A stretch of 64,000 nucleotides of DNA, from positions 80,530 through 144,529 of the forward strand of contig NZ_FNXF01000003.1 of NCBI RefSeq assembly GCF_900108485.1. Direction: 5' to 3'. The notes below the pieces were generated by a model. The model searched no databases. It worked only from the letters and a program-made list of their open reading frames with translations, and was not told where the DNA came from. Positions 9,814 through 51,705 of the stretch are shown here, one piece after another. Source of the DNA: Rheinheimera pacifica (GTDB lineage: Bacteria; Pseudomonadota; Gammaproteobacteria; Enterobacterales; Alteromonadaceae). How positions within the stretch are numbered: the first letter of the stretch is position 1; every line of letters begins with the position of its first letter. The position numbers and the translations under genes were made by a program.

Positions 9814-11030
9814 CAGCCGCTAAACCGGATTTGCTGTTGCTGGTACACCGCATTCCCTATCCACCCAATAAGGGCGATAAAATCCGCTCATTTAATTTAA
9901 TGAAAGCGCTAAGCCAGCATTACACGGTGCATCTGGGCTGTTTTATCGATGATCCTTTTGACCGGCAGTATATAGATACACTCAGCCAGTGGTGCGCCAC
10001 CGTATTCTGTGTAAACCAAGCCAAGTGGCAGGCAAAGCTGTGCGCTTTGAGCGGTTTTATTAATAATCAGGCCATTACCCTGCCCTACTATTTCAGCCTG
10101 GCTATGGCTGCCTGGGTAAAAACCACAATTAGTACACATAAGATTGAAAAGGTACTGGTGTACTCCTCATCTATGGCTCAGTACGTCGATAAAGCTGATT
10201 ATCAGCAATTGATCAGAGTGATCGATTTTGTTGATATTGATTCAGACAAATGGCGCCAATACGCCGAAAAATCACGCGGTGTTAAACGCTGGTTTTATCA
10301 GCGGGAGGCCAGGTTACTGCTGCAATACGAAAAACAGATTTGTCAGCGCTTTAGCAGCAGCCTGTTCGTGTCAGACGACGAAGCCAGCGCATTTCGTGCC
10401 ATGCTGCCTGCTGAGTTGCAGCACAAAGTACACAGTGTATTAAATGGCGTTGATACTGACTATTTCTCACCCGATATTCCAGACTGCAGCACAGAACATA
10501 CATTGCCTGAGCAATATATCGTATTTACCGGCGCCATGGATTACTGGGCCAATGTAGATGCAGTCTGCTGGTTTTGTCAAAACATCTGGCCACGGCTAAA
10601 ACAGTTATACCCGCAGTTACACTTTATGATAGTCGGTGGTAAACCCAGCACTGAAGTGCGGGCACTTAGCCAGCAAGCGGGTGTAATTGTTACCGGCCGG
10701 GTAAATGATGTACGCCCTTATATCAGCCACGCCCGCTTTGCGGTAGCGCCTATGCTAATAGCGCGCGGTATACAGAATAAAGTGCTTGAAGCAATGGCAA
10801 TGAACAAGGCCGTAGTCTGCAGTGCCATGGCGATGGAAGGCATTAATGCCCCCGCTAGCGAAGATGCGGTAATTGCCGATGGGGTAGATAACTTTATCCG
10901 GGCTTGCAAACGGCAACTGGATCGCACTTCAGCGCCCTCTGCTAACCGGCAGTGGATTTTACAGCATTTTACCTGGCAACAAACGTTAGTACGGTTAAAC
11001 AGCTTTATCCATCCGGAGTTGCCGGCATGA
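9810..11030 (+). CDS. GT4-type glycosyltransferase, XrtA system (stp1 type)
   Basis: A 406-residue GT-B glycosyltransferase matching the first of the exosortase A-associated sugar transferase families. The N-terminal motif LVHRIPYPPNKGDKIRS is typical. The C-terminal domain has LNGVDTDYFSPD and the nucleotide-sugar binding segment RGIQNKVLEAMAMNKAVV. It adds a sugar to the lipid-linked repeat unit in the cytoplasm; donor and linkage cannot be read from sequence. The ATG at 9810 overlaps the upstream stop by ATGA and the protein then begins MTAAKPDLLLLV, so the longer frame from 9747 is rejected. Confidence 0.9.
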   Translation: MTAAKPDLLLLVHRIPYPPNKGDKIRSFNLMKALSQHYTVHLGCFIDDPFDRQYIDTLSQWCATVFCVNQAKWQAKLCALSGFINNQAITLPYYFSLAMAAWVKTTISTHKIEKVLVYSSSMAQYVDKADYQQLIRVIDFVDIDSDKWRQYAEKSRGVKRWFYQREARLLLQYEKQICQRFSSSLFVSDDEASAFRAMLPAELQHKVHSVLNGVDTDYFSPDIPDCSTEHTLPEQYIVFTGAMDYWANVDAVCWFCQNIWPRLKQLYPQLHFMIVGGKPSTEVRALSQQAGVIVTGRVNDVRPYISHARFAVAPMLIARGIQNKVLEAMAMNKAVVCSAMAMEGINAPASEDAVIADGVDNFIRACKRQLDRTSAPSANRQWILQHFTWQQTLVRLNSFIHPELPA

Positions 11031-12490
11031 CAGCCCTTAACCGCCAGGCTAACGTTTTGCTGCTTGTTGTGATCGGCCTGGCTTATATCGTGCTTTACGG
11101 CTCAACCTGGCTGGATATGGAGCGGGTGTGGCGCAGCTCTGCAACTTATAATCATTGCTACCTGATCCTGCCCATCTGTCTGTATTTTTTTTATCGCGCC
11201 AAAACGCCGCTTATTACGCCTTCCGCCGCCGGTTACTGGTTATGGCTACCGGCTCTTGGTTTAATATTGCTACAATTAATCTGGCTGTTTGGCTACGCGG
11301 CTGATATCGCCCTGCTGATGCATATTGCCGCCGTAATGTCGCTACAGGCGCTGTTATGGCTTGCTTTTGGTAATACCAACAGCCGTTTGCATTGGTTTGC
11401 CATCGCATATCTGATATTTCTGGTACCTTTTGGCGAAGAGTTATCGCCGTTTTTACAGAATATTACCGCCGATCTCACCGTGGTGATGTTGCAGGCTGTC
11501 AGCATTCCGGTTTATCGTGAAGGCCTTTACCTCGCCACTCCGGTAGGTTTATTTGAAGTGGCAGAAGCCTGCTCAGGCTTACGTTTTCTGATCGCATCAC
11601 TGGCTATTTCAGCGCTATTTGCCTACCTGCACTACAACAAAATCTGGAAACAGGTCAGTTTTGTCGTGTTTATGGCCTTGTTATCTGTACTGGCCAATGG
11701 TGTACGCGCTTTTATGTTGGTTTATATCGGTGAAAAAACCGATATGCGCTTTGGCTTTGGCGCTGATCATTATCTGTATGGCTGGCTGTTTTTCGGCCTG
11801 GTATTAATAGCCGGTTTCTGGCTGGGGGCAAAATTTTCAGATCCTACCCAGCAGCTTGAACGGCGCAGCAAACAGCATTTTAGTTTACAAACCAAGCCAT
11901 CAATGTTGATTCTGGCCACTGCAATTATTGCGCTAACCCTGAGTTACCGGTTGTCGTTAAACGTGATGGCAGAGCCCGCAGCGATACACAACCTTGCCAT
12001 GCCTTTTGCCAGTCAGCCGGTAGAAAAAAGTAACTGGGGTATCAATTTTATAAACAGTCTGGCCCAGAGCCATGCTCAGGATACTGCAGGTACCGAATAT
12101 TTCGTCGCCCGCTACGGTAATAAACAACAAAATGGCGAGCTGATTAACTGGCAGAACAACCTGTTTGATAAACAACGCTGGCAGGTACAACGACGTATTA
12201 TCGGTGCAGACAGTGCCATATTACAGTTAAGAAGCCTGACGAATGAACAACGCACTGTGCTGTACTGGTATCAGATTGACGAACAACGGGTAGTACCTGA
12301 ACTGGAAGTGAAAGTACGCCAGGCATTAAGTTACCTGGCTGATGATCAGTCCAGTGCTTATATTTTTGCTGTATCAGTTAATGGTAAAGCCTCAGAGCAA
12401 AACCTGGCAGTGTTGCAGCAAGCCGCAGCCTTATTGTCACAAACCCAAACTACTACGGAGCAGGCCGTTGCCGGAGGCCAATATGACTGA
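11027..12490 (+). CDS. xrtA: Exosortase A fused to an EpsI domain
   Basis: A 487-residue inner-membrane cysteine transpeptidase-like enzyme (EpsH/XrtA) that cleaves the PEP-CTERM sorting signal of secreted proteins. About eight transmembrane helices fill residues 10-310. The catalytic residues sit in EACSGLRF (C182), LANGVRAF (R227) and GADHYLYGW (H248). After residue ~315 comes a periplasmic EpsI-type domain (WGINFINSL, then the tryptophan- and glutamine-rich segment to the end). The XrtA-EpsI fusion is known in this family, and EpsI-family proteins are linked to exopolysaccharide production. The ATG at 11027 overlaps the previous stop by ATGA; upstream in-frame starts fall inside the glycosyltransferase gene. 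The likely substrate is the PEP-CTERM protein at 47408. Confidence 0.96.
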   Translation: MTALNRQANVLLLVVIGLAYIVLYGSTWLDMERVWRSSATYNHCYLILPICLYFFYRAKTPLITPSAAGYWLWLPALGLILLQLIWLFGYAADIALLMHIAAVMSLQALLWLAFGNTNSRLHWFAIAYLIFLVPFGEELSPFLQNITADLTVVMLQAVSIPVYREGLYLATPVGLFEVAEACSGLRFLIASLAISALFAYLHYNKIWKQVSFVVFMALLSVLANGVRAFMLVYIGEKTDMRFGFGADHYLYGWLFFGLVLIAGFWLGAKFSDPTQQLERRSKQHFSLQTKPSMLILATAIIALTLSYRLSLNVMAEPAAIHNLAMPFASQPVEKSNWGINFINSLAQSHAQDTAGTEYFVARYGNKQQNGELINWQNNLFDKQRWQVQRRIIGADSAILQLRSLTNEQRTVLYWYQIDEQRVVPELEVKVRQALSYLADDQSSAYIFAVSVNGKASEQNLAVLQQAAALLSQTQTTTEQAVAGGQYD

Positions 12491-39811: not shown

Positions 39812-41071
39812 TCACAGTAAAATCTCCGCCACTGCTGCATGGCCAAGAAAGTCCTGTGGGCTTGCTGTGGGCCCGTAAGCCCCAGACTGGTACACCACTA
39901 CCCAGTCTCCTATGTCAGCCTGCGGCAGGCTGACTTTATCTGCGAGTATATCCAGTGGCGTACATAAAGGCCCCACCACTGTTACCGGTTCAGCAGCAGC
40001 TTGCTGCATTTTATTGCCAATAGCCACCGGATAATTTTTACGGATCACCTGGCCAAAATTGCCGGAATTTGCCAGATGGTGATGTAAACCACCGTTACAT
40101 ACCAGATAGGTTGTGCCCCGCGACACTTTTTTATCCACCACCTGACAAGCATAAACGCCAGCCTCTGCTACCAGGTAACGGCCAAGTTCAATTACCAGCT
40201 CTATACCGGCAAGGGCGTGTTCGTATTGCTGTAGTAGGTGTTTAAGCGATAAACCAATAGGCTGTAAATCAAGCCGTTTTTCACCGGGAAAATAAGGAAT
40301 ACCAAAACCACCACCCAGATTGATCAAATCAGGCCGGTATGGGCACGCGGCAACCAGTTTAGCCGCCAGATCAAACGTAAGCTGATGTGCTTCTGTCAGT
40401 GCTTCAGTTTTTAGATTTTGCGAGCCGCAAAAAATATGAAACCCACGCAACTTCACCGGCATGGCGGCAATCTGGGTCAGTAGCTCAAACACTTGCTCTT
40501 CATCAATACCAAAAGGCTTAGCACCACCGGCCATTTTCATGCCTGAAGCTTTAAGCTCAAACGCCGGGTTAACCCGCAGTGCTACCTGGGGTGTGACCTT
40601 ATGCTGTTTACCCAACTGGCAAATACGCTGCAGCTCACTGGCCGATTCTACATTTAGCGTTACACCTGCTGTAATAGCAGCGGCAAGCTCAGTATCAGTT
40701 TTACCCGGGCCGGCAAAGCTGATATCGGCTACCGGCATTCCGCTTTGTAATGCCAGCAGCATTTCTTTTTGTGATGCCACATCAAAACCATCTACCAACG
40801 GGCGCATATGCTGCACAACAGGCCAGTATGGGTTAGCTTTTACCGCATAGTGCAGCTTAATTCTGCCAGGAATTGCCGCCCTGAAACGCTGGATCTGTTG
40901 GTTTATAATCTGGCGGTCGTAAGCATAAAACACAGTTTTGCCAAGCATAGTACTAATAGCATTAAGGCTGAAACCGCCCAGCAACAGCTCATCCCCCTGA
41001 CAGCTAAATTGTGACATCAGCTCATGCTGCGGCGCTTGTGGCCGTGTTTCTGTATTCAGGCTACTACTCAT
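39812..41071 (-). CDS. XrtA-associated PLP-dependent decarboxylase
   Basis: A 419-residue fold-III PLP enzyme of the ornithine/diaminopimelate decarboxylase type, exosortase A-associated subgroup. LHYAVKANPYWPV carries the PLP lysine (K78). INLGGGFGIPYF is the glycine-rich phosphate loop, and VVGPLCTPLD the cysteine-containing second active-site segment. It likely decarboxylates an amino acid bound to the acyl carrier protein at 42817 or a free amino acid; the ligase gene next to it (ATGA overlap) supports an aminoacyl- or acyl-ACP route. The exact product is unknown. Confidence 0.92.
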   Translation of the reverse strand: MSSSLNTETRPQAPQHELMSQFSCQGDELLLGGFSLNAISTMLGKTVFYAYDRQIINQQIQRFRAAIPGRIKLHYAVKANPYWPVVQHMRPLVDGFDVASQKEMLLALQSGMPVADISFAGPGKTDTELAAAITAGVTLNVESASELQRICQLGKQHKVTPQVALRVNPAFELKASGMKMAGGAKPFGIDEEQVFELLTQIAAMPVKLRGFHIFCGSQNLKTEALTEAHQLTFDLAAKLVAACPYRPDLINLGGGFGIPYFPGEKRLDLQPIGLSLKHLLQQYEHALAGIELVIELGRYLVAEAGVYACQVVDKKVSRGTTYLVCNGGLHHHLANSGNFGQVIRKNYPVAIGNKMQQAAAEPVTVVGPLCTPLDILADKVSLPQADIGDWVVVYQSGAYGPTASPQDFLGHAAVAEILL

Positions 41072-42660
41072 CTGGATGCCTCATTAAAATAACCCCGGTA
41101 CTGCTCTGACAATAGCTTACGATCAATTTTACCATTGGCATTTTTTGGCAGCCCTTGCTGCACAATTAAAGCTTTTGGCTGCATAAAATTAGGCAAACTG
41201 CGTTTTAGCTGGGTTGTCCAGTTAGCAATGTCCGGTTCATTACCGTCTTTGCAGGCAAATAACACCAGAATGGCTTGCTCCAGCTCAGGGTGCGGCACAC
41301 CAATGGCGGCAACATCAACCAGTGCAGGGCTAAGTTGGTACACGGCCTCTTCCACTTCAGTAGGGCTAACCCGATAACCTGAAGTTTTAATCATTTCATC
41401 GCGCCGGCCAATAAAGTATAAAAAGCCATCTTCATCGCAGCGCACTGTATCGCCAGACCACACCGCAAGCTGCGGTAGCTGGATACCTTTAGGGGCTACC
41501 GGGTCAAACTTAAAGCGCTCAGCAGTTTTATCCGGGGCATTCCAGTACCCCAGGCTGACCAGCGGCCCGCGGTGCACCAGCTCTCCTGGCTCATTTGGCG
41601 CACACAAGCTGCCGTCTTCACGCACAACGACAATCTCGGCATTTGGAATAGCTTTACCCATAGAGCCGGGCCGCTTTTCCAGCTCAGCTGGCGGCAAATA
41701 GGTAGAACGGAAAGCCTCAGTTAAACCATACATTAAATAGGGTTCAGCTTTATTGAAAACCTGCTGCAGCTGTTGCAGCAAAGCCTGTGGCATAGCCCCA
41801 CCGGAGTTGGTCAGATAACGCACAGTATCGGTGCTGCCTTCAACCCAGTTAGCTTTGGCCAGCTGCGCCCACAAAGGCGGTACCGCAGCAATGCCGGTTA
41901 CCCCGTACTGCTGCACCGTGCGCACTACATCCTGTACCAGGAAAAAATCCAGCAACACCACACTGGCACCGGTTAAAAACGCGGTGGTCAGCTGGCTCAG
42001 GCCATAATCAAAGCTCAGGGGTAACAATGCCAGTAATACATCATCGGCTGTATTGTTAAGATAACTGGAGACACTCTGAGCGCCCACCAGCATATTACGG
42101 TGAGACAGTACCACCCCTTTGGGTTTACCGGTGCTGCCCGAGGTATACAAAATAGCCGCCATGTCCTGATCGGTTGCATGCGGATATAACTGCAATGTTC
42201 TGTGGCTGACATCAGCATAAAATGACTTCAGCTGAATATGCGCCAGCGGGCTCATATCTTCAGTAACGTCAGTCAATAACACCGTGTGCAAATCACTGCA
42301 CAAATGCAGTTCTTCTTCTAAGGTCGCCAGCCGGTCTTTGCTGGTAATCAGCACCCGGACATTACAATCCTGCAGTATATGGGCTACCTGCGCCGCCTTT
42401 AAACCCGGATTCACCGGCACAAATACCGCACCGGCCATTGCGCAGCCAAACAGGCTGAACACGGTTTCAAATTGTTTGGGCAGGTACACCGCCACCCTGT
42501 CAAAACGCTTAACATCCTGCGCTTGCAACTGCACAGCAGTGGTTGTTACGCCTGAAGCAAGTTCAGCATAAGTTAAGGCGGTATTTTTAAAGTACAGTGC
42601 AGGACGCTTAGGAAAACGTGCAGCAGACTGGGTAACGATATCGTGGAGATTTTTGGTCAT
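41068..42660 (-). CDS. XrtA-associated acyl-CoA ligase (AMP-forming)
   Basis: A 530-residue adenylate-forming enzyme of the ANL superfamily, exosortase A-associated group. LYTSGSTGKPKGV is the phosphate loop, YGLTEAFRSTYLPP the adenine region, and SGDTVRCDEDGFLYFIGR the hinge. The C-terminal PKNANGKIDRKLL provides the catalytic lysine. It probably activates an acid (amino or fatty acid) and loads it on the divergently encoded acyl carrier protein. A GTG at 42681 is possible, but GAAGGA just before the ATG at 42660 decides the start. It heads the leftward ligase-decarboxylase-SGNH-MBOAT unit. Confidence 0.92.
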   Translation of the reverse strand: MTKNLHDIVTQSAARFPKRPALYFKNTALTYAELASGVTTTAVQLQAQDVKRFDRVAVYLPKQFETVFSLFGCAMAGAVFVPVNPGLKAAQVAHILQDCNVRVLITSKDRLATLEEELHLCSDLHTVLLTDVTEDMSPLAHIQLKSFYADVSHRTLQLYPHATDQDMAAILYTSGSTGKPKGVVLSHRNMLVGAQSVSSYLNNTADDVLLALLPLSFDYGLSQLTTAFLTGASVVLLDFFLVQDVVRTVQQYGVTGIAAVPPLWAQLAKANWVEGSTDTVRYLTNSGGAMPQALLQQLQQVFNKAEPYLMYGLTEAFRSTYLPPAELEKRPGSMGKAIPNAEIVVVREDGSLCAPNEPGELVHRGPLVSLGYWNAPDKTAERFKFDPVAPKGIQLPQLAVWSGDTVRCDEDGFLYFIGRRDEMIKTSGYRVSPTEVEEAVYQLSPALVDVAAIGVPHPELEQAILVLFACKDGNEPDIANWTTQLKRSLPNFMQPKALIVQQGLPKNANGKIDRKLLSEQYRGYFNEASR

Positions 42661-42816
42661 AGTATCCTTCAGACCTTTCACTTTTTATCCCTTTGTGTGC
42701 AATAATAAAACAGTTTTGCGGAAAATCCGACTGTAATTTATCTACTCTGTGTAGTTTAACCGCAGCGGCCCCTTTTACGCAAATCAGGGAACTACCTGTC
42801 ATTTTAAGGAAGCATT

Positions 42817-43059
42817 ATGCCACACCAGCAACTTCTCGCTGATATCTTACGCGCCGTCTTGCAAATAGATAAACAATTTACCGACGATACCCCCTTGCTG
42901 GGAGCTATTCCTGAGTTTGATTCTATGGCAGTTATTGCTGTAATAACCGAACTGGAAGAGCAACTGGGTATCCAGATTAATGATGATGAAATATCCGCCG
43001 ACGTCTTTGAAAACTTTGGCCAGTTAAATAAATTTGTCACTCAAAAACAAGCTGCCTGA
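42817..43059 (+). CDS. XrtA-associated acyl carrier protein
   Basis: An 80-residue acyl carrier protein. The phosphopantetheine serine is S36 in EFDSMAVI, which replaces the classical DSL. The length, acidic composition and four-helix pattern fit. AAGGAAG precedes the ATG. It probably receives an acyl or aminoacyl group from the divergent ligase and presents it to the decarboxylase or to an acyltransferase of the locus. The two divergent genes share a 156-base control region. Confidence 0.9.
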   Translation: MPHQQLLADILRAVLQIDKQFTDDTPLLGAIPEFDSMAVIAVITELEEQLGIQINDDEISADVFENFGQLNKFVTQKQAA

Positions 43060-43123: not shown

Positions 43124-44368
43124 ATGCAGAGTTTTTCCCGTGTATCAGTAATAGGTTTGGGCTATATAGGTTTACCTACCGCCGCAGTTATCGCCTCCCG
43201 CGGCGTGGAAGTGCTCGGCGTTGATGTGTCAGAGCATGCGGTTAACACCATCAATCAGGGCAAAATTCATATTGTCGAACCTGATTTGGATATGCTGGTA
43301 CAAGCTGCCGTCACCACCGGCAAGTTAAAGGCATCTTTAACACCGGAACCGGCTGAAGCTTTTATGATAGCAGTGCCCACGCCGTTTAAAGAAAATAAAA
43401 CCCCTGACTTAAGCTATATCAAGGCAGCGCTGGAAAATATTGCCCCGGTTATCGCTAAAGGCAACCTTATTGTGCTTGAATCAACCTCTCCGGTTGGTAC
43501 TACCGATAAAATTTCAGCCTGGCTGGCTGAACTGCGCCCGGATTTGGTCATGCCACATCAGGACCCGGACAAAGCCGATGTTTTTATTGCCCACTGCCCC
43601 GAGCGCGTATTACCTGGCCGGGTATTGCAAGAGCTGGTTAGCAACGACCGGATTATTGGTGGTATTACCGAGCGCTGTGCGCAAAAAGCCGTCGCCCTGT
43701 ATCACCTGTTTGTCCGCGGCGAATGTTTACTAACTAACGCCCGCACGGCAGAGATGGCTAAGCTGACTGAAAACTCGTTCCGCGACGTCAATATCGCTTT
43801 TGCCAATGAACTGTCGATGATTTGTGATCACTTAAAAATTAATGTTTGGGAACTGATCAAACTGGCCAACCGCCACCCACGGGTTAATATTTTAACACCC
43901 GGCCCAGGCGTAGGTGGCCACTGTATCGCTGTTGATCCATGGTTTATTGTTGACTCCGCGCCAGAGCAGGCGCAGATTATCCGCAAGGCGCGTGAAATCA
44001 ACGACAGTAAACCGCTGTACGTGATTGATAAAATAAAGCAGGCCGCTGATCAGTTTAAAAAGCCGGTAATAGCCTGTTTAGGCTTAGCGTTTAAAGCAGA
44101 TATTGACGATTTACGTGAAAGCCCGGCGCTGGATATCGCCATGTCATTATTAAAAGACAATATTGGCGAAATTTTGCTGGTAGAGCCTAATATTAAACAG
44201 CTACCGAAAAAGTATGCAGACCACAACGACAAGCTAACTTCTTTGCCACAGGCATTAGAGCAAGCCAATATATTAGTGGTACTGGTCGACCATAAGCAGT
44301 TTAAAACCCTGCACCCGGTAGATGTAGCAACCAAAGTTGTTATTGATACCAGAGGCATTTTCGGTTAA
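43124..44368 (+). CDS. wecC: UDP-N-acetyl-D-mannosamine dehydrogenase
   Basis: A 414-residue NAD-dependent nucleotide-sugar 6-dehydrogenase. VSVIGLGYIGLPTAAVIAS is the NAD-binding Rossmann start (7-25). VLESTSPVGTT contains the usual substrate loop, and GPGVGGHCIAVDPW holds the catalytic cysteine C267. It oxidises UDP-ManNAc to UDP-ManNAcA in two steps, giving an acidic sugar donor. No UDP-GlcNAc 2-epimerase (WecB) is in the window, so that substrate must be made elsewhere. UDP-GlcNAc 6-dehydrogenase is a possible alternative activity, but WecC-type motifs are clear. Confidence 0.88.
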   Translation: MQSFSRVSVIGLGYIGLPTAAVIASRGVEVLGVDVSEHAVNTINQGKIHIVEPDLDMLVQAAVTTGKLKASLTPEPAEAFMIAVPTPFKENKTPDLSYIKAALENIAPVIAKGNLIVLESTSPVGTTDKISAWLAELRPDLVMPHQDPDKADVFIAHCPERVLPGRVLQELVSNDRIIGGITERCAQKAVALYHLFVRGECLLTNARTAEMAKLTENSFRDVNIAFANELSMICDHLKINVWELIKLANRHPRVNILTPGPGVGGHCIAVDPWFIVDSAPEQAQIIRKAREINDSKPLYVIDKIKQAADQFKKPVIACLGLAFKADIDDLRESPALDIAMSLLKDNIGEILLVEPNIKQLPKKYADHNDKLTSLPQALEQANILVVLVDHKQFKTLHPVDVATKVVIDTRGIFG

Positions 44369-44399
44369 CGAAAATCATTTCGCTACAAGGAGTGTAACT

Positions 44400-47156
44400 A
44401 TGAAAAAAACTACCCTGCTCGCCAGCGCCGTTATGCTGGCGCTGCTTTCCGGTTGTGGCAGTAAAGATGCAACAGAGCATTACAGTGATGCGCTGAGTTT
44501 TATTCAGAATAAACAATACAGCGCTGCTGTAATCGAATTAAAATCGGCTGTGCAGCAAGAACCGGAAAATGCAGAATACCGTTTAGCTCTTGGTTTACTT
44601 CAGTTGCAGATTGGCGACAGTATATCTGCAGAAAAAGAGCTGGCCCGCGCCCTGAGTTATGGCACCGACAAGCATAAAGTGGCTTTGCCGTTGGTTCGCA
44701 GTAGCTATCAGGCGGGTGATTATCAGGCAGTGCTGGCGCACTTTTCTGATGAGACACTGCCACCGGAACAGCAAGTTTATATTGACGTATACCGTGCTCT
44801 GGCTCAGTTAGAGCTCGGTGACGCCGAGGCTGCAATAGCTCTTTTTGACCAACTGGCAACACAAAACAACTTCAGCGATGCGGCAATTTATGCCCAGGCG
44901 CATTTACTTATTGCCAATCGCAATAATAGCCAAGCACTTGAGATCATTAATCAGGTGCAGCCTGACAGCTTACTTTATGCCGAAGCATTATTTCTGCAAG
45001 GCAGAACTCAGTTAGCAGAAGAGCAGCATGCCGCTTCTATTGAAAGTATGCGCAACTATCTGACCATGGTGCCTAATAACTTGCAGGCCCGCCTGATGCT
45101 GACGCAAAACCTTGTCAGCACAGAGCAGTTTGATTTAGCAGATAAAGAATTAGCCTTGCTGCTCAAAGCGTTTCCAAATCAGCCGTTTACTAATTATCTG
45201 AAAGCGGTGTTGGAGTATGAGCGCGAGAACTACACCCTGGCCAAAGAACATGTTGAAAAAGCCATCAACAATGGTCTGCGTAATACCAGCGCACGTATTA
45301 TTGCTGCATTAGCATCTCTGCATCTGGGGTTGGAGAGCCAGACATTAAACCATCTGAGCGCGATACAAAACCAGTTACCGCAATATCCGCCGTTGCAAAA
45401 TCTTTACGCTTCACTGCAATTAAAGTCTGGCCAGCTTGATCAGGCTCAGGCGATTCTGGTTAACCAGGATCCGCAGGCAATGGATTACAAATTACTCGCA
45501 GCAACATCATTCCAGCTGATTAAACAAGGTTCCGGCAGTGCAGCACAAGAGCTGATTGCCAAATATGAACTAAGTGAAAACAGTAAAGATGTCGCCTCAA
45601 TGACAACCTTAGGCCTGCTTAAAATGGGCATTGATGGCCAGGAATCAAGCGGTTTACGGGATCTTGAACAAGCTCTGCAATTGGACCCAAGCCAGAGTCA
45701 GACCCGCGTCGTGCTTGCTATCAGTTACCTCAGACAAAAAGAGTATGACAAAGCCTCAGCCATAGTTGATGAGTGGCTGACAGACGAAAAGCTGGCTGTT
45801 GTTGGCTACAATCTGAAAGCCTATGGCGCTATGCTGCAAAAGCAGTTTGACGAAGCTGAAGTGTTTCTGCAACAAGCGCAGCAAGCCACTGCTGATCAAC
45901 CTTTTACTTTACTATTGCAAGCCCTTGTTGCCGGCACGAAAAGTGATTTTGTGCAAGCAAAGCAACTTCTGGTTAGATCAATAGAGAAACATCCATCTTA
46001 CCTGCCGGCATTACAGCAGTACTATGCGCTCAGCAAAGATGATGACAAAGGTGCTGACGCAATAAAACGGGCTGGCGCTATTTTAAAAGATAACCCGGGC
46101 AACAACGCACTGCGGTTAACGTTAGCCCGTATGTACTACCAGCAACAAGAGTTTAAAAAAGCTATAGAGGTAATTGGCGATCCATCAGTGAATATGGTTA
46201 ATGCCACCGCAGCTTACTGGCTGACCTTAATAGACTCACATGCCCAGCTTGGTAATCAGAAAGAGGTGCTGGCTTTAAGCGAACGCTGGTACCAGCAAGA
46301 GCCCGAAAACCTGCGGGCAGCATACTTCTATGCTACCAGCCTTAGTCTGGCTAAACGCCATGCTGAAGCGATAAATGTTGCTGATAAACAACTGGTTAAA
46401 CATCCGAAAAATCCAATGCTGCTGCGTAGCAAAATCATGGCATTGTCTGAATCTAAAGACTATACCAAAGCGTTGGATAGCTTCAAAAGCCTGACAGAGC
46501 AAGATGCAGCAACGGCTGAAATGCAGTTTTTAAAAGGCCGGGTACTGTTTTTAAACGGCCAGATCCCACCGGCAATTGCTGCTTTTAATCAAAGCTATCA
46601 GTTAGCGCCAACAGATCAGACAGCCATGTTTATTGCTGAAATTTATTCAAAAGACTATTCACACCAACGTGCTGTAGAGTTTTTAGAAGGCCATTTCAGT
46701 AAAGCCCAGGCTAGCGGCAACCTGAAATTGTTTTACGCCAACCTGCTACTGGAATCTGATAAGAAAAAAGCCTTTGGGCTTTATGATGAAATTTTGCAGG
46801 CCTCTCCTGACAACTACATCATACTGAATAACTATGCCTGGATCCTCGCAGAGCAAAATCAGTTACCTGAAGCCAAACAGCATATTGAAAAAGCGATCAA
46901 GCAGGCACCAAAGCACCCCGACGTATTAGACACTTACGGCAAAGTGCTGATGAAAATGGATAACCTGCCAGACGCTATAAAAGCTTTTGAGCAGTCTCTG
47001 GCGATAAGGCCAGAGAATGATCTGGTTAAGCTTAATTATGCCGAAGCACTGGTACGTGCTGATAATAAAAGCAAAGCTAAAACGGTACTGGCTAATGTAA
47101 AAAGCCGTGATGCTGAAGTCATCAAACGGGTTGACGCCATTAACAGCATGTTGTGA
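44400..47156 (+). CDS. prsT: XrtA/PEP-CTERM system TPR-repeat lipoprotein PrsT
   Basis: A 918-residue lipoprotein made almost wholly of tetratricopeptide repeats. The signal peptide ends in lipobox LLSGCGSK with the lipidated Cys19. Repeats continue to the C-terminus (for example IILNNYAWILAEQNQLPEAK). Exosortase A loci regularly carry this protein; it is thought to be an outer-membrane periplasmic scaffold for export or sorting. The ATG at 44400 has AAGGAG seven bases upstream; the frame open from 44337 overlaps the wecC gene and lacks a signal peptide. It is 31 bases after wecC and is followed by a 12-bp perfect hairpin. Confidence 0.94.
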   Translation: MKKTTLLASAVMLALLSGCGSKDATEHYSDALSFIQNKQYSAAVIELKSAVQQEPENAEYRLALGLLQLQIGDSISAEKELARALSYGTDKHKVALPLVRSSYQAGDYQAVLAHFSDETLPPEQQVYIDVYRALAQLELGDAEAAIALFDQLATQNNFSDAAIYAQAHLLIANRNNSQALEIINQVQPDSLLYAEALFLQGRTQLAEEQHAASIESMRNYLTMVPNNLQARLMLTQNLVSTEQFDLADKELALLLKAFPNQPFTNYLKAVLEYERENYTLAKEHVEKAINNGLRNTSARIIAALASLHLGLESQTLNHLSAIQNQLPQYPPLQNLYASLQLKSGQLDQAQAILVNQDPQAMDYKLLAATSFQLIKQGSGSAAQELIAKYELSENSKDVASMTTLGLLKMGIDGQESSGLRDLEQALQLDPSQSQTRVVLAISYLRQKEYDKASAIVDEWLTDEKLAVVGYNLKAYGAMLQKQFDEAEVFLQQAQQATADQPFTLLLQALVAGTKSDFVQAKQLLVRSIEKHPSYLPALQQYYALSKDDDKGADAIKRAGAILKDNPGNNALRLTLARMYYQQQEFKKAIEVIGDPSVNMVNATAAYWLTLIDSHAQLGNQKEVLALSERWYQQEPENLRAAYFYATSLSLAKRHAEAINVADKQLVKHPKNPMLLRSKIMALSESKDYTKALDSFKSLTEQDAATAEMQFLKGRVLFLNGQIPPAIAAFNQSYQLAPTDQTAMFIAEIYSKDYSHQRAVEFLEGHFSKAQASGNLKLFYANLLLESDKKKAFGLYDEILQASPDNYIILNNYAWILAEQNQLPEAKQHIEKAIKQAPKHPDVLDTYGKVLMKMDNLPDAIKAFEQSLAIRPENDLVKLNYAEALVRADNKSKAKTVLANVKSRDAEVIKRVDAINSML

Positions 47157-47162
47157 TATAAC

Positions 47163-47190
47163 AGCTGTGCTGCAGCAATGCAGCACAGCT
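47163..47190 (+). terminator. Hairpin after prsT
   Basis: AGCTGTGCTGCA (47163-47174) and TGCAGCACAGCT (47179-47190) form a perfect 12-bp stem with a GCAA tetraloop six bases after the prsT stop. The T run that follows is weak (TCTGTT), so it may stabilise the mRNA end as much as terminate. Confidence 0.7.
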
Positions 47191-47309
47191 TCTGTTAAAG
47201 CAGCTTCACTATAAAAAACACCTCCGGCTACTGTCACGTAATTTTACAACATCAGTTTTCAACCACACCACCAATCACACAAGTCACTGATAAAAAACAA
47301 CAAAAAAAG

Positions 47310-47327
47310 TTGGCACCAAAAGTGCTT
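47310..47327 (+). promoter_or_regulatory. Sigma-54 (-24/-12) promoter of the PEP-CTERM gene
   Basis: TTGGCACCAAAAGTGCTT has the invariant GG (47312-47313) and GC (47324-47325) with exactly ten bases between. The -24 element TTGGCAC is a consensus match; the -12 element GTGCT differs at one position from TTGCW. Transcription should begin near 47337, about 70 bases before the ATG. In XrtA systems the PrsK/PrsR two-component pair with an RpoN-dependent regulator is known to accompany the locus, so this is a natural PrsR target. No enhancer site is identified. Confidence 0.8.
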
Positions 47328-47407
47328 ATATATAAGTCGATTGCTTGAGGATAAGTTTGCGGGGCAACCCAACTAGCTTGTGTGGAAACTTCACTAAGGA
47401 AATGAAA

Positions 47408-48169
47408 ATGAAAAAATTACTTGCAGGATTATTTTTAGCTGGAGCGGCGGCCTTTAACGCCAGTGCTTCAGTAATTATGTTTGACGACAGCTCATTTGGC
47501 GGTTCAGGTTCTACCATGTTCGACGAAATCGACTGGGATCCGGATCTGGCACAAGTGACTCAAACTGACACTAACGGCAATGGCTCAATTTTTGGTGGTC
47601 AGGACGATTTTATGGAGTTCGGCCAGACATTAATGGTTAACTTCAAACAATCAGGTATGCCAAACTTTTTACCATCAGCATACGAAGTATTTCTGGACTA
47701 TGAATTTAATGGTACAGCAGAAGCCTTCCCTAACTTTGGTGGTTTAATTCAGGTTTTATTTGCTGGCGGTTCTGCCACTTTATGGGCTGACACCACTGTA
47801 AACGGTGCTTACGATGCAGGTACTGCGACTGCTTTAGGTACTTTTTCATTGGTTAACGGCAACTGTATGACAAGTGTTGCTGGTGTTGGTGCTTGTGATA
47901 TCACCATGAAGTTTAACGCTAACCCAGGTTACTTCTACCACAATGGTAACGATATCTCTGGTAACAATGCTGTGTATTCACAACTGATTGTTACTGTGCA
48001 GAACATTATTGGTTTATCACCAAACTATAACGGTGTTCCAGGTTCTACTCAGGAATTCCAAATCCGTCACGATGGTAACCAAACCTTCACTGTACCAGAA
48101 CCAGCAAGCTTAGCATTGTTAGGTTTAGGTCTGTTAGGTTTACGTCTGAACCGTCGTAACAAAGCCTGA
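47408..48169 (+). CDS. PEP-CTERM sorting domain protein (likely XrtA substrate)
   Basis: A 253-residue exported protein. The signal peptide is about residues 1-20 (MKKLLAGLFLAGAAAFNASA). The mature part is rich in Gly, Asn, Asp and Phe, with two Cys near the centre. The C-terminus VPEPASLALLGLGLLGLRL is a complete PEP-CTERM tripartite signal: the PEP motif, a hydrophobic helix, and the basic tail NRRNKA. XrtA should cut near the PEP motif. AAGGA seven bases before the ATG at 47408 sets the start. Codon use favours GGT, CGT, AAC and TTC, unlike the neighbouring glycan genes, which suggests high expression. A sigma-54 promoter and a terminator frame it as a single-gene unit. Confidence 0.95.
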   Translation: MKKLLAGLFLAGAAAFNASASVIMFDDSSFGGSGSTMFDEIDWDPDLAQVTQTDTNGNGSIFGGQDDFMEFGQTLMVNFKQSGMPNFLPSAYEVFLDYEFNGTAEAFPNFGGLIQVLFAGGSATLWADTTVNGAYDAGTATALGTFSLVNGNCMTSVAGVGACDITMKFNANPGYFYHNGNDISGNNAVYSQLIVTVQNIIGLSPNYNGVPGSTQEFQIRHDGNQTFTVPEPASLALLGLGLLGLRLNRRNKA

Positions 48170-48185
48170 TTTATCAGCGCTATTA

Positions 48186-48213
48186 AAAAGGGCATCTGAT
48201 GATGCCCTTTTTT
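48186..48213 (+). terminator. Intrinsic terminator of the PEP-CTERM gene
   Basis: AAAAGGGCATC (48186-48196), loop TGAT, then GATGCCCTTTT (48201-48211) running into further T bases. This is a classical rho-independent terminator 17 bases after the stop codon. Confidence 0.92.
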
Positions 48214-48269
48214 ATTGTCTTTTACACTGTGTCTGCCGATTGAGCGTTTTTTTGCGTTGTATCTCTGCT

Positions 48270-50237
48270 TTACTCTACCAGCAATTGTTGCAGACTAAAC
48301 CGCAGCGAACGCGAAGCGGGTTGCTCACTACGCCCTACCCGGCCAAAAAATACCTTATTAGCAAATACTTGTGGCGGTAATAACGCAGCCAGCTTTTTGT
48401 CCATCGCCACTGCGTTGTCAAATGCTTGCTGGTTAGTGGTGAACTGCAGGTTGTCACGCAAATAGCCGGAAAAAATAACCGGTGTCTGCTCAGGCTGAAA
48501 GCCTAGTTTTAGCTTAGTTGCCGTAAGCCAAAAACGCTGTAAAGCGCTCCCTGCGGCCACCTGTTGTTCCAAGGTCACCGGTGCCTCAGCAGCAGTGCTA
48601 TATAGCACAAAGTGTGCACTGCAGCGTAATGCCGGTAATAAATCCAGTTGCAATCTGGGTGCTATGGTCCCCCCCATATATTTGGCCATAAACTCAAAGC
48701 GCTCCCAGCTTGCCAGCGCCCATTTCATCAGTTTTGCCGTGGCGGCATCTACGCCCAATGCCTGCTCGGGGATTTTGTCTATACTGAACTGCTTACCCCA
48801 ATCGATGATTTTGCTATGTACATCATAACCCTCTTTCATAATCAGCCGGGTGTAAGCATTACCATATAATAACTTAGCGATAGTCCAGCGCTCAGCTGAG
48901 CTTTCAAACCAGTGCACCGCGAAGCCAGGCGGTAAAGCCATTTCAAGCTGACGCTTTTCACCGGAGTTCAGTGCTGTAGTGCCCATTGGCCTGCGTTGTA
49001 CGGTTCGTGTTTCAATATAAGGGGCAAGCGCATCAGCTTTAATGCTGCTGTCTTGCAACAAAGCAATTTTATACACCGGATGCTCTGCATCAGAGCGGTC
49101 AATGTCGCTGATTTCCAGCTGATATCCGCGTTCAGAAGCTGCGATACGGGCAGTTTCGAGTAAAGCACCGTGGGCCATATTGCTGGCAAAGCCGTTTAAA
49201 TCGTATACCACATCGTGGCGGGTATCATTACCCAGAATGTCGCAACTTAATGCCGATGTCGGTCGAAAGCGCCAGCATTGGGTATTGTCACCACTGGGTG
49301 CCCAGCGGGCTTTATCTAATACATAACGTAATGGATCCTGTTCCGGTGCGGTTTTAGGCGCTATTTGCACGGGTTGATTCAGAAAGTACTTCCGTCCCAG
49401 ATGAAGTGCCAGCCGGTTTATGGGATTGGCATTGCCAAAAGGCCGCCAGCTAACTTTATAGCTATTACGATAAGCATCAAATTGCAGGCTTCTGGGCGCG
49501 GCAATAACTTTCCCGCGGTTCAGCATCAGCTTTAATGCCTGAGTTGCTGCAACGCCGGCGCAAAGCTCGCAAGCCATGATAGTTGACGGCCCTTTGCGCT
49601 CAGGCAAATTTATACTTTCTGGTACCACTAAATAGGCACTGTGCAGTCTGGCAGGCGATAACCCGACAAAAAAGCGCAAATACTGTTCATTTTCATCACA
49701 GCCATCAAGTAGAAAATATTGCTCAAATGTCATCTTGCCGGGCAAAAAGTTCAGGTTCGCTACCCCCATCCCCAAAGGCGCAGCGGTTACCGCAGGAATA
49801 CCCGCATCATAGGCTTTTCTGAACATCAGGCTTCTGATTTTCAGCGCAAAAAAGTCAAGCCCATCAATATATACATCAACATCCTGTAAAAAAGCGTCGA
49901 TATTACTTTCAGTAACACCGTCTGCAAAAGTGGTTATTTCCAGATCCGGGTTAATATCCAATGCCATTGCTACCAGTGTATCGAGCTTTTTCTGGCCCAC
50001 GGAAGATAATCTGGCACCGGCCTGACGGTTAAAGTTTTCAATATCGAAACTGTCAAAATCTGCCAGGTGAAACCGGCCAACACCAAGCCGGGCCAGCGTC
50101 AGTAAGTGTGCTCCCCCAACCCCTCCCATACCGGCAATTGCCACGCGCTTACTGGCCAGCAGTTGCTGTTCTGCTAAGGTTAGCCAGCCAATATTGCGCG
50201 AAAATGCTTTGTAATAGTCAAAATCGGATGAACTCAT
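48270..50237 (-). CDS. E1-like (ThiF/MoeB) adenylyltransferase fused to a nitroreductase-like domain
   Basis: A 655-residue fusion. Residues ~1-270 are an E1/ThiF/MoeB fold: VAIAGMGGVGGAHLL (33-47) is the ATP loop, and FDIENFNRQ (64-72) carries the usual Asn and Arg. A single CxxC (ACELC, 223/226) replaces the normal two zinc knuckles. Residues ~300-655 resemble a nitroreductase flavoprotein; RWAPSGDNTQCWRF (311-324) is the FMN-loop-type start. ThiF plus nitroreductase fusions are known in a few bacteria (Rv1355c-like proteins); the substrate is unknown. The gene begins four bases after the acyltransferase stop, with AAGGA spacing of about eight, so both are probably translated together. Confidence 0.82.
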   Translation of the reverse strand: MSSSDFDYYKAFSRNIGWLTLAEQQLLASKRVAIAGMGGVGGAHLLTLARLGVGRFHLADFDSFDIENFNRQAGARLSSVGQKKLDTLVAMALDINPDLEITTFADGVTESNIDAFLQDVDVYIDGLDFFALKIRSLMFRKAYDAGIPAVTAAPLGMGVANLNFLPGKMTFEQYFLLDGCDENEQYLRFFVGLSPARLHSAYLVVPESINLPERKGPSTIMACELCAGVAATQALKLMLNRGKVIAAPRSLQFDAYRNSYKVSWRPFGNANPINRLALHLGRKYFLNQPVQIAPKTAPEQDPLRYVLDKARWAPSGDNTQCWRFRPTSALSCDILGNDTRHDVVYDLNGFASNMAHGALLETARIAASERGYQLEISDIDRSDAEHPVYKIALLQDSSIKADALAPYIETRTVQRRPMGTTALNSGEKRQLEMALPPGFAVHWFESSAERWTIAKLLYGNAYTRLIMKEGYDVHSKIIDWGKQFSIDKIPEQALGVDAATAKLMKWALASWERFEFMAKYMGGTIAPRLQLDLLPALRCSAHFVLYSTAAEAPVTLEQQVAAGSALQRFWLTATKLKLGFQPEQTPVIFSGYLRDNLQFTTNQQAFDNAVAMDKKLAALLPPQVFANKVFFGRVGRSEQPASRSLRFSLQQLLVE

Positions 50238-50241
50238 ACGG

Positions 50242-51015
50242 TTAGTCCTTTTGCCGGATTAAATAAGGGTAAAGCCGCAGTTGCGGGGCTAACTGGCTTT
50301 TTAGCATATTAAACAACTGCAGAATTTCCGGGTTAAGTGCCGATATGAACTTATGCTCAGGAAGATAAAATAACGCGCGGGTGCCGTGATAATCCATTTC
50401 ATCACCGATTTGCTCAAACGCCAACCCTAACCGCTCAAGGCGTTTTTTTAACCTGGGTTCCACCACAACAAACATAGCCTTGTGATGACACATTTGTACC
50501 AGCGCTATAATACTCAGGTACAAGCCGATGGCAATATTAGGGAAGTTTCTGCGTTCTTCTTCTGAAAATACATCTTTTTCCAGATTAATCTCGTTGATGA
50601 CATAAGGCGTATTTTGCTCACCTAAACGACGGCGAAACGCCTCAGGCACAGCAAGCCGGGAAATTTCACTGAAAGAACCGCGTTCAAATTCAGACAGATC
50701 AATTAAATCGGTTCTGACTGACGACAAACAGTGCTGTTCAAACGGCAGTTGATAAGATGGGTTCTCTGCCGGAGGAATAACCAGCCGAGCAGTGCCGGCA
50801 TACTGGCCAGTCCTTTTATGCACCAACAGCAGGGCAAAAGAGTACTCGTCACACTCATCGGTTTCCATACCATTTTCGCGCAACGGCTCCCAGCCCAGTT
50901 CTTCACAGTACACTGAGTGTCTGATCTTAAAAGACTCTTGTCGTAACGCTGTTGAAGCGGCAAACTTAATTTCAAAATACTGCTTAAAGTTGTCGGCCAG
51001 ACTGACACAATCCAT
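50242..51015 (-). CDS. PEP-CTERM/exosortase-associated acyltransferase (LuxI-like fold)
   Basis: A 257-residue protein of the GNAT-type group described as PEP-CTERM/exosortase system-associated acyltransferase, related in fold to N-acylhomoserine lactone synthases. FKIRHSVYCEELGWEP near the N-terminus aligns with the LuxI-type R-x2-V/F region, and TARLVIPP and SEISRLAVPEAFRRR match its later conserved blocks. It probably transfers an acyl group to an amino compound; acyl-ACP or acyl-CoA as donor is inference. It heads a two-gene operon with the E1/nitroreductase fusion, close to the PEP-CTERM gene. GGAT before the ATG is a weak Shine-Dalgarno. Confidence 0.87.
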   Translation of the reverse strand: MDCVSLADNFKQYFEIKFAASTALRQESFKIRHSVYCEELGWEPLRENGMETDECDEYSFALLLVHKRTGQYAGTARLVIPPAENPSYQLPFEQHCLSSVRTDLIDLSEFERGSFSEISRLAVPEAFRRRLGEQNTPYVINEINLEKDVFSEEERRNFPNIAIGLYLSIIALVQMCHHKAMFVVVEPRLKKRLERLGLAFEQIGDEMDYHGTRALFYLPEHKFISALNPEILQLFNMLKSQLAPQLRLYPYLIRQKD

Positions 51016-51071
51016 GATGATATCCAGTTAATACATTAGACTCAGTAAATATAGTAGCCACTCTTTGTTTG

Positions 51072-51125
51072 TTTTACATAGTAAAATCATCTAACAATGC
51101 GAATTTCATATACTAAATTATTTAG
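51072..51125. promoter_or_regulatory. Two perfect palindromes upstream of the acyltransferase operon
   Basis: TTTTAC-ATA-GTAAAA (51072-51086) and CTAAAT-T-ATTTAG (51113-51125) lie in the 134-base intergenic region before the acyltransferase, inside AT-rich DNA that also must hold its promoter. They could be operator sites. AT-rich palindromes also arise by chance, so this is tentative. Confidence 0.35.
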
Positions 51126-51149
51126 AGTCACACCAATTTCACAATAATA

Positions 51150-51647
51150 TTAACTAACTGTGTATTTAGCCGCCAACTGTTGTAACGAAGCTCCGGTAAC
51201 CCGGTTTATCCGCCAATCTTCTAGCATAGTGGCGCCCTGTGCCTGATAAAAATCTATTGCAGGTTGATTCCAGTCTAGTACAGACCACTCAAGACGGCCA
51301 CAGTCACGCTCGACAGCCAGTTTTGCCAGATAACTCAGCAGTACCCGGCCCAAACCTTTACCACGGTATTCAGGCAATACAAACAGATCTTCCAGATAAA
51401 TACCTGGTTTGGCTAAAAATGTTGAATAATTATGAAAGAACAATGCAAAGCCGGCAGCCTTTTTATCATATTCTGCAATGACAACCTCGGCATAAGCTTT
51501 GTGACCAAATAATGTCTGTTGTAATTTTTCTTCTGTAGCCACAACCTGATCTGACAGCCTTTCATATTCAGCCAGCCCTTGAATAAAAGTCAATATAACA
51601 GGTACATCTTGCGGTGTGGCTAAACGCAAATGAATTTTATCAGACAT
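51150..51647 (-). CDS. GNAT family N-acetyltransferase (SSAT-like)
   Basis: A 165-residue acetyltransferase of the GNAT family, closest in pattern to the spermidine/spermine and thialysine N-acetyltransferases. GIYLEDLFVLPEYRGKGLGR is the acetyl-CoA binding segment (R/Q-x2-G-x-G/A), and LEWSVLDWNQPAIDFYQAQG is the usual substrate-side motif. It acetylates a small amine in the cytoplasm; which one cannot be told. It stands alone between the acyltransferase operon and fadE. Confidence 0.88.
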   Translation of the reverse strand: MSDKIHLRLATPQDVPVILTFIQGLAEYERLSDQVVATEEKLQQTLFGHKAYAEVVIAEYDKKAAGFALFFHNYSTFLAKPGIYLEDLFVLPEYRGKGLGRVLLSYLAKLAVERDCGRLEWSVLDWNQPAIDFYQAQGATMLEDWRINRVTGASLQQLAAKYTVS

Positions 51648-51665
51648 AACAGCTCCTTAAAGCAA

Positions 51666-51705
51666 TAAAAAAACGCCGACACAGCATCAGGCTCTGTCGG
51701 CGTTT
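51666..51705 (-). terminator. Intrinsic terminator of fadE
   Basis: On the minus strand AAACGCCGACA and TGTCGGCGTTT form an 11-bp stem (51671-51681 with 51695-51705) followed by a run of seven T bases. It ends the tetR-fadE transcript just before the GNAT gene. Confidence 0.9.

Follow-up and report, generated by a model that had tools for sequence, protein, structure and literature searches.

A probable oxazolone operon of the OxzAB type as an exchangeable unit of the exosortase A locus in Rheinheimera pacifica

The described systems closest to the operon discussed here, a two-gene unit in a 64,000-nucleotide stretch of Rheinheimera pacifica DNA (assembly GCF_900108485.1, contig NZ_FNXF01000003.1, positions 80,530 to 144,529; hereafter the window, numbered from its first base), combine an acyltransferase with a ThiF-type (E1) adenylating enzyme and a flavin-dependent oxidase (FDO). 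In published accounts, TrzA acylates tryptophan, and the ThiF-FDO fusion TrzS cyclises the product with ATP and desaturates it with O2, an activity that needs an Asp of the ThiF part and an Arg of the FDO part (PMC12856293). TyzACB is described as carrying out the equivalent reactions on tyrosine via separate proteins (PMC10404671), and OxzA and OxzB of Pseudoalteromonas rubra as an acyltransferase and a ThiF-FDO fusion (PMC10404671, PMC12856293). Producers of thalassotalic and kyonggic acids are reported to have short operons of synthase, ThiF, and nitroreductase genes (PMC12479983). A link between N-acyl amino acid synthases and the PEP-CTERM/exosortase system is attributed to Craig et al. 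(2011) by the papers that cite it (PMC4897644, PMC7293339, PMC11072679). We consider it very likely that the pair in the window makes oxazolones in the manner of OxzAB and forms an exchangeable part of the exosortase A locus, whose surface programme it serves.

On the minus strand of the window, a gene for a 257-residue acyltransferase is followed after four bases by that for a 655-residue fusion protein, and the fusion gene converges with a PEP-CTERM gene, itself preceded by a PrsT gene. The initial annotation had described the pair, its spacing, and the neighboring PEP-CTERM gene correctly; the latter encodes a protein of the PepA type (its open reading frame runs from a TTG at 47345, with the ATG at 47402 as the likely start), and the locus is that of exosortase A. 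The same annotation called the second protein an E1/nitroreductase fusion, which holds for the architecture and fails for the reduction: the second domain resembles the Acg-like flavin-dependent oxidases and is probably an oxidase rather than a reductase, because the characterised ThiF-FDO relatives desaturate with O2. Its proposal of a shared substrate for both proteins, within a route tied to the exosortase, is well supported, both by what is described of the characterised relatives (PMC12856293, PMC10404671) and by the co-occurrence set out below. The route is, in outline, already known as OxzAB, and in place of activation, reduction, and acyl transfer, the order expected from the relatives is acylation followed by ATP-dependent cyclisation and desaturation.

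The acyltransferase scores 242.9 bits against the exosortase-associated family TIGR03694 (cut-off 111.95), and its predicted fold resembles the LuxI-type N-acyl-homoserine lactone (AHL) synthases and FeeM (2g0b). It is also above the cut-off of Pfam Autoind_synth (31.7 versus 24), by a short match, and shares the LuxI fold. Identity as an AHL signal synthase was rejected, as the corresponding models fall far short of their cut-offs (NF010408, 29.5 versus 292; NF052393, 21.9 versus 250). The fusion is matched by the folds of ThiF/MoeB in its E1 part and of 2YMV in its oxidase part. Residues N70, R71, K84, D125, and D128 of the ThiF ATP site, which we take to be catalytic, are invariant across 21 fusions, as are several Arg, and D128 aligns with an Asp of TcdA chains. 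Among named records, the fusions of Rheinheimera sp. EpRS3, R. pacifica, and R. hassiensis are 95% identical to that of the window, and one from a gammaproteobacterial metagenome-assembled genome is 98% identical.

The association with the exosortase is seen at two taxonomic depths. Among 369 genomes of the class, the E1 gene (E <= 1e-30) was found in 40, and an exosortase in 38 of these compared with 89 of the 329 lacking E1; in the family (162 genomes), an exosortase accompanies E1 in 79 of 79 genomes and occurs in 48 of the 83 without E1. TIGR03694 tracks the exosortase less well (34 of the 47 class genomes with a match above the cut-off). Start to start, with contigs taken as linear, E1 and exosortase lie within 50 kb of each other in 15 of 20 same-contig pairs in the class (20 of the 38 genomes with both genes) and in 53 of 62 in the family (62 of 76 genomes, a list from which G000, G378, and G169 stand apart). 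The refuting condition set by the initial annotation, that the pair be rarely adjacent in other genomes, gets a mixed answer: the pair adjoins in all eight fusion genomes of the genus, but an acyltransferase (defined as >40 bits to the profile of the genus enzymes) lies within 1 kb in 41 of 65 fused named loci, some of which are truncated where a contig stops, and the acyltransferase is paired with something else in 22 of the 30 genus genomes. Counting every E1 gene at fetched loci, fused or not, that distance is kept in 12 of 29 loci of the class, 19 of 26 of the family, and 42 of 80 named loci. E1 is fused in 13 of these class loci, has a separate adjoining oxidase gene in 7, and lacks one in 9, the family figures being 4, 10, and 12; the class and family searches used strict limits (E <= 1e-30, 1e-40, and 1e-30), under which a separate oxidase domain in E1-only genomes could be missed. 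A search for exosortase within the loci with a single query matched five open reading frames and was not used.

Within the genus (31 genomes), an exosortase is present in 30, and the same 30 carry two TIGR03694 copies above cut-off. The remaining genome, G009, has no exosortase, no TIGR03694 copy, and no match to the PEP-CTERM family PF07589 (E <= 0.001), an absence of the whole system. In G000, the second TIGR03694 acyltransferase lies on another contig (G000:C45:548701-549366, locus L002), near a gene that by eye looks like a MarR-type regulator. At the exosortase locus, the acyltransferase gene of the 30 genomes has a single partner after it, in the same orientation, namely the fusion (8 genomes), E1 alone (6), or a flavin adenine dinucleotide (FAD) enzyme (16), with a spacing that ranges from a 98-base overlap of the longest open reading frames to 66 bases. 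Two partner types were never found together in the window or in 29 fetched genus loci of 15-17 kb, the vanillyl-alcohol oxidase (VAO) type described next having been checked at these loci rather than genome-wide. For the six E1-only genomes, no oxidase-domain match is listed at E <= 0.001. In the slot regions of L064, L065, L069, and L072, two PEP-CTERM-like genes lie near the acyltransferase module.

The third partner is an enzyme of ~550 residues with Pfam FAD_binding_4, matched by chains of p-cresol methylhydroxylase and vanillyl-alcohol oxidase. In the L066 enzyme, Tyr89, Tyr507, and Arg508 are aligned with one Tyr and one Tyr-Arg pair in the p-cresol enzyme, which we take to be the phenolate-binding residues of the latter, and all three are invariant in the 16 genus partners. 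At the level of the class, such an enzyme was found at E <= 1e-40 in 3 of 369 class genomes. In G114 (L200) and G166 (L201), its gene adjoins a TIGR03694 gene and all three residues are kept; in G209, it lies on another contig than the TIGR03694 gene, and Phe and His replace the two Tyr.

Exchange of this module is apparent when near relatives are compared. Genomes G000 and G010 share 95.1% identity in rpoB, 94% in UDPdh, and 91% in FadE, but only 44% in PrsT and 36% in the acyltransferase. Between the window and G018, which has the VAO-type partner, the flanks align at ~75-79%, and the intervening segment given in Table 1 is unaligned (blastn, pieces >=120). G001, with the phenol oxidase, and G008, with E1 alone, are 98.5% identical in rpoB. 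On a tree of the 27 rpoB sequences found among the 31 genomes (G022, G023, G026, and G027 are outside it), the partner changes at least six times, the fusion state alone needing three changes; on a tree of PrsT, found in 29 of 30 genomes (not G022), the eight genomes with the fusion group in a single, fully supported clade. Both trees are of a quick type, with support from the Shimodaira-Hasegawa-like approximate likelihood-ratio test only. PepA is present in all eight fusion genomes. The acyltransferases fall into two distant clades; E1 alone is found with both, the fusion with one, and the phenol oxidase with the other. From the repeated changes on the rpoB tree, the single PrsT clade, and the constant presence of PepA, we infer that the fusion and the acyltransferase travel as a set with PrsT and PepA; at the level of sequence, the comparisons demonstrate exchange of the cassette between species along with its PrsT and PEP-CTERM protein.

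In the route that we propose, the acyltransferase would take a fatty acyl group from acyl-coenzyme A or an acyl carrier protein and place it on the amino group of an aromatic L-amino acid, for which homologues and, indirectly, the phenol-oxidase partner make tyrosine or phenylalanine the likeliest choice; the acyl carrier protein-like protein encoded in the window is a possible source of that acyl group. The E1 domain would then adenylate the carboxylate with ATP and close a five-membered oxazolone, as shown for TrzS and TyzB, and the Acg-like flavin domain would take two hydrogens at C-alpha and C-beta with O2, as shown for homologues. The predicted product is an N-acyl oxazolone, in this case an acyl tyrazolone or phenazolone, or, once opened by hydrolysis, an N-acyl dehydro-amino acid.

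Such a lipid may serve the exosortase/exopolysaccharide surface programme, its chemistry being fitted to one specific PrsT and one specific PEP-CTERM protein. A surface role is supported by two reports: when a related acyltransferase is disrupted in Methylomonas sp. LW13, the distinct polysaccharide band of that strain no longer forms, a defect that is complemented (PMC11072679), and the stieleriacine cluster includes a PEP-CTERM gene (PMC7293339). Most simply, selection at the locus would be for a modified N-acyl aromatic amino acid that different tailoring enzymes can produce and that is matched to a PrsT/PEP-CTERM pair; that the lipid acts together with the sorted protein would be a further step. 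We put forward only tentatively, as a view more apt to be wrong than right, that lipid chemistry is an exchangeable cassette of exosortase A loci, in which one acyltransferase is combined with a swappable tailoring enzyme (the fusion, E1 alone, or the phenol oxidase), inherited with a matched PrsT/PEP-CTERM pair, and the product is the working partner of the sorted protein. The occupation of one slot by two non-homologous oxidases would then mean that C-alpha/C-beta oxidation of an N-acyl aromatic amino acid is the selected function. The lipid might, for instance, be a matrix component bound by the sorted protein or, most boldly, the acceptor or an activated (azlactone) donor in exosortase sorting.

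Several observations weigh against the reading of the pair as an OxzAB-type operon in the service of the exosortase A locus. The fusion reaches 376.6 bits against PRK14851 (NF011424, cut-off 1170, aligned over residues 5-652) and 157 bits against the Rv1355c/TrzS family NF005901 (cut-off 476); its likeness to OxzA-OxzB is judged by architecture and from the descriptions in the papers, P. rubra being outside the 80 named loci; and the pair, although of the known OxzAB kind, has functions assigned from homologues and a product that is predicted. The partners are not strict alternatives outside the genus, as Candidatus Thiomargarita nelsonii carries the fusion and a VAO-type gene ~4 kb apart (locus L184). 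The VAO-type gene in question spans L184:16037-17659 and scores 418 bits against the genus profile. The VAO-acyltransferase pairing can also stand alone, occurring as it does in G114 and G166, which have no exosortase match, and G128 and G390 have E1 and TIGR03694 with no exosortase detected, so that the link between E1 and exosortase is not absolute. The last two genomes would also fit a lipid of the same chemistry that diffuses and works as a signal or in the manner of an antibiotic, found in the locus on account of co-regulation in biofilms rather than a physical part in PEP-CTERM sorting. To this alternative we give a nearly even chance. It draws further on reports that stieleriacines, with the PEP-CTERM gene in their cluster, alter biofilm communities (PMC7293339) and that sub-inhibitory antibiotics induce oxazolones, which have a likeness to cell-cell signals, in proteobacteria (PMC12856293). 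A closer tie to the exosortase is nonetheless suggested by the exchange together with PrsT and PepA, by the joint absence in G009, and by the co-occurrence in 79 of 79 family genomes, although these counts, and the Fisher tests made on them, ignore shared ancestry.

The identity of the amino acid is a separate matter. The substrate could differ from the one proposed, TrzAS being described as using tryptophan, and specificity is not readable from the sequence here; a different oxazolone, built on tryptophan or a non-aromatic amino acid, is nevertheless rather unlikely in our estimate. The alternative enzyme in the same slot belongs to the 4-alkylphenol oxidase family, has kept the phenolate residues, and would suit N-acyl tyrosine, an argument that is indirect because the VAO type goes with a different acyltransferase clade. 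Far less probable still is a protein-modifying or thiocarboxylating E1 of the MoeB, ThiF, or ubiquitin-like kind, working on a small carrier protein while the oxidase domain serves some unrelated reaction. The E1 fold does resemble ThiF, MoeB, MccB, and the eukaryotic E1s, but the listed ThiF, MoeB, and Ube1 models are all far under their cut-offs (the best, PRK08644, at 86.5 versus 159), on which ground such a system was set aside; moreover, the partner gene is from an N-acyltransferase family, and the characterised ThiF-FDO fusions, as far as they are described in the passages covered, work on N-acyl amino acids.

The chemistry of the pair is thus known, and what was not expected is its tie to a surface-protein sorting system and the swapping of cassettes. 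We know of no identified acceptor for the bacterial exosortases. The role of oxazolone lipids is for its part described as a major unresolved question (PMC12856293), and the data on co-occurrence and on the cassette connect these two questions. The genus offers a natural experiment, in which near relatives have different tailoring enzymes and PEP-CTERM proteins while exosortase, acyltransferases, and PEP-CTERM proteins are all missing from one species, and a phenotype that can be scored already exists in the polysaccharide band reported lost on acyltransferase disruption in Methylomonas sp. LW13 (PMC11072679).

The remaining features of the locus are collected in Table 1. XrtA, PrsT, the ligase, the decarboxylase, an XrtA amidotransferase, and a polysaccharide deacetylase are above cut-off in the window, the XrtA ATPase (TIGR03015, 310.8 versus 324.5) and hydrolase 2 (TIGR03101, 188.8 versus 202.75) narrowly under it. 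A sigma-70 promoter 5' of the acyltransferase gene was looked for and dismissed (seven promoter-like matches in 47100-51700, compared with 7.8 in shuffles), as was sigma-54 control, a -24/-12 scan of the window giving a single site with two mismatches (13028, minus strand) and none at the operon. A plasmid-borne form of the operon was likewise rejected: with the fusion as query, a tblastn search of 72,556 plasmid records returned four at E <= 1e-30, in each of which less than 80% of the query was covered. E1-like genes do occur on NC_008741.1, two other Nitratidesulfovibrio plasmids, and Bdellovibrio AP029178.1, with 42-47% identity to fusion residues 11-377 or 11-278.

Table 1. Features of the exosortase A locus in the window (positions numbered from the first base of the window)
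Feature	Coordinates	Strand	Basis
Exosortase A (XrtA)	10952..12490	+	TIGR03109, 292.5 bits, cut-off 208
Exosortase A system-associated pyridoxal phosphate (PLP) decarboxylase	39812..41071	-	TIGR03099
Exosortase A system-associated acyl-CoA ligase	41068..42681	-	TIGR03098
Acyl carrier protein-like protein	42817..43059	+	weak family matches under cut-offs
PrsT TPR lipoprotein, exchanged with operon	44337..47156	+	family match, tree
Exchanged cassette	44651..51192		segment without blastn similarity to G018
Flocculation-associated PEP-CTERM protein PepA	47402..48169	+	above PepA model cut-off
Terminator-like hairpin between convergent PepA and fusion genes	48185..48212
ThiF/E1-flavin-dependent oxidase fusion (OxzB position), 655 residues	48270..50237	-
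Acg-like flavin-dependent oxidase domain, ~residues 299-652	48282..49343	-	structure 2YMV
Oxidase domain profile matches NF005901, NF047509	48282..49343	-	both below cut-off
E1/ThiF domain, residues 1-288	49374..50237	-	NF006077, 410.6 bits, cut-off 266
N-acyl amino acid synthase-like acyltransferase (OxzA position)	50242..51015	-	TIGR03694 family match; predicted fold

In the literature, covered mostly at the level of titles and abstracts, we found no report of the association between E1 and exosortase or of the exchange with a phenol-oxidase type, and the passages covered of PMC2907700, PMC13385065, PMC8776678, PMC12078418, and PMC11631085 give no link of ThiF or oxazolone lipids to exosortase. 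The 2006 PEP-CTERM/EpsH paper (PMC1569441) names acyltransferase, ThiF, nitroreductase, adenylyltransferase, and FAD zero times each. With the synthases of Craig et al. (2011), the locus shares the acyltransferase half and the link to exosortase, which was thus reported before; the passages that cite that work give the synthase link only, and the E1 link and the swapping of partners are what the present analysis adds. The 4-alkylphenol oxidases (vanillyl-alcohol oxidase and p-cresol methylhydroxylase) share sequence similarity and the phenolate residues with the 16 genus partners; they are unrelated to the E1-FDO fusion, and none is encoded in the window. The thalassotalic and kyonggic acid operons, as described, bring together the same three activities with short spacing, there for N-acyl dehydrotyrosines, and differ in having ThiF and nitroreductase as separate genes and in that an oxazolone was not observed. 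TrzA-TrzS of mycobacteria (Rv1356c-Rv1355c) has the acyltransferase and ThiF-FDO fusion in one operon, as here, with cyclisation preceding desaturation; it is reported to be specific for tryptophan, its family model is matched here only at the low score given above, and the passages covered mention no link to exosortase. Closest is OxzA-OxzB of P. rubra (de Rond et al., 2021), in which, again in a gammaproteobacterium, an acyltransferase gene adjoins a ThiF-flavin oxidase fusion. Unlike that system as it has been described, the R. pacifica pair neighbors PepA within an exosortase A locus, and in its relatives other partners take the place of the fusion.

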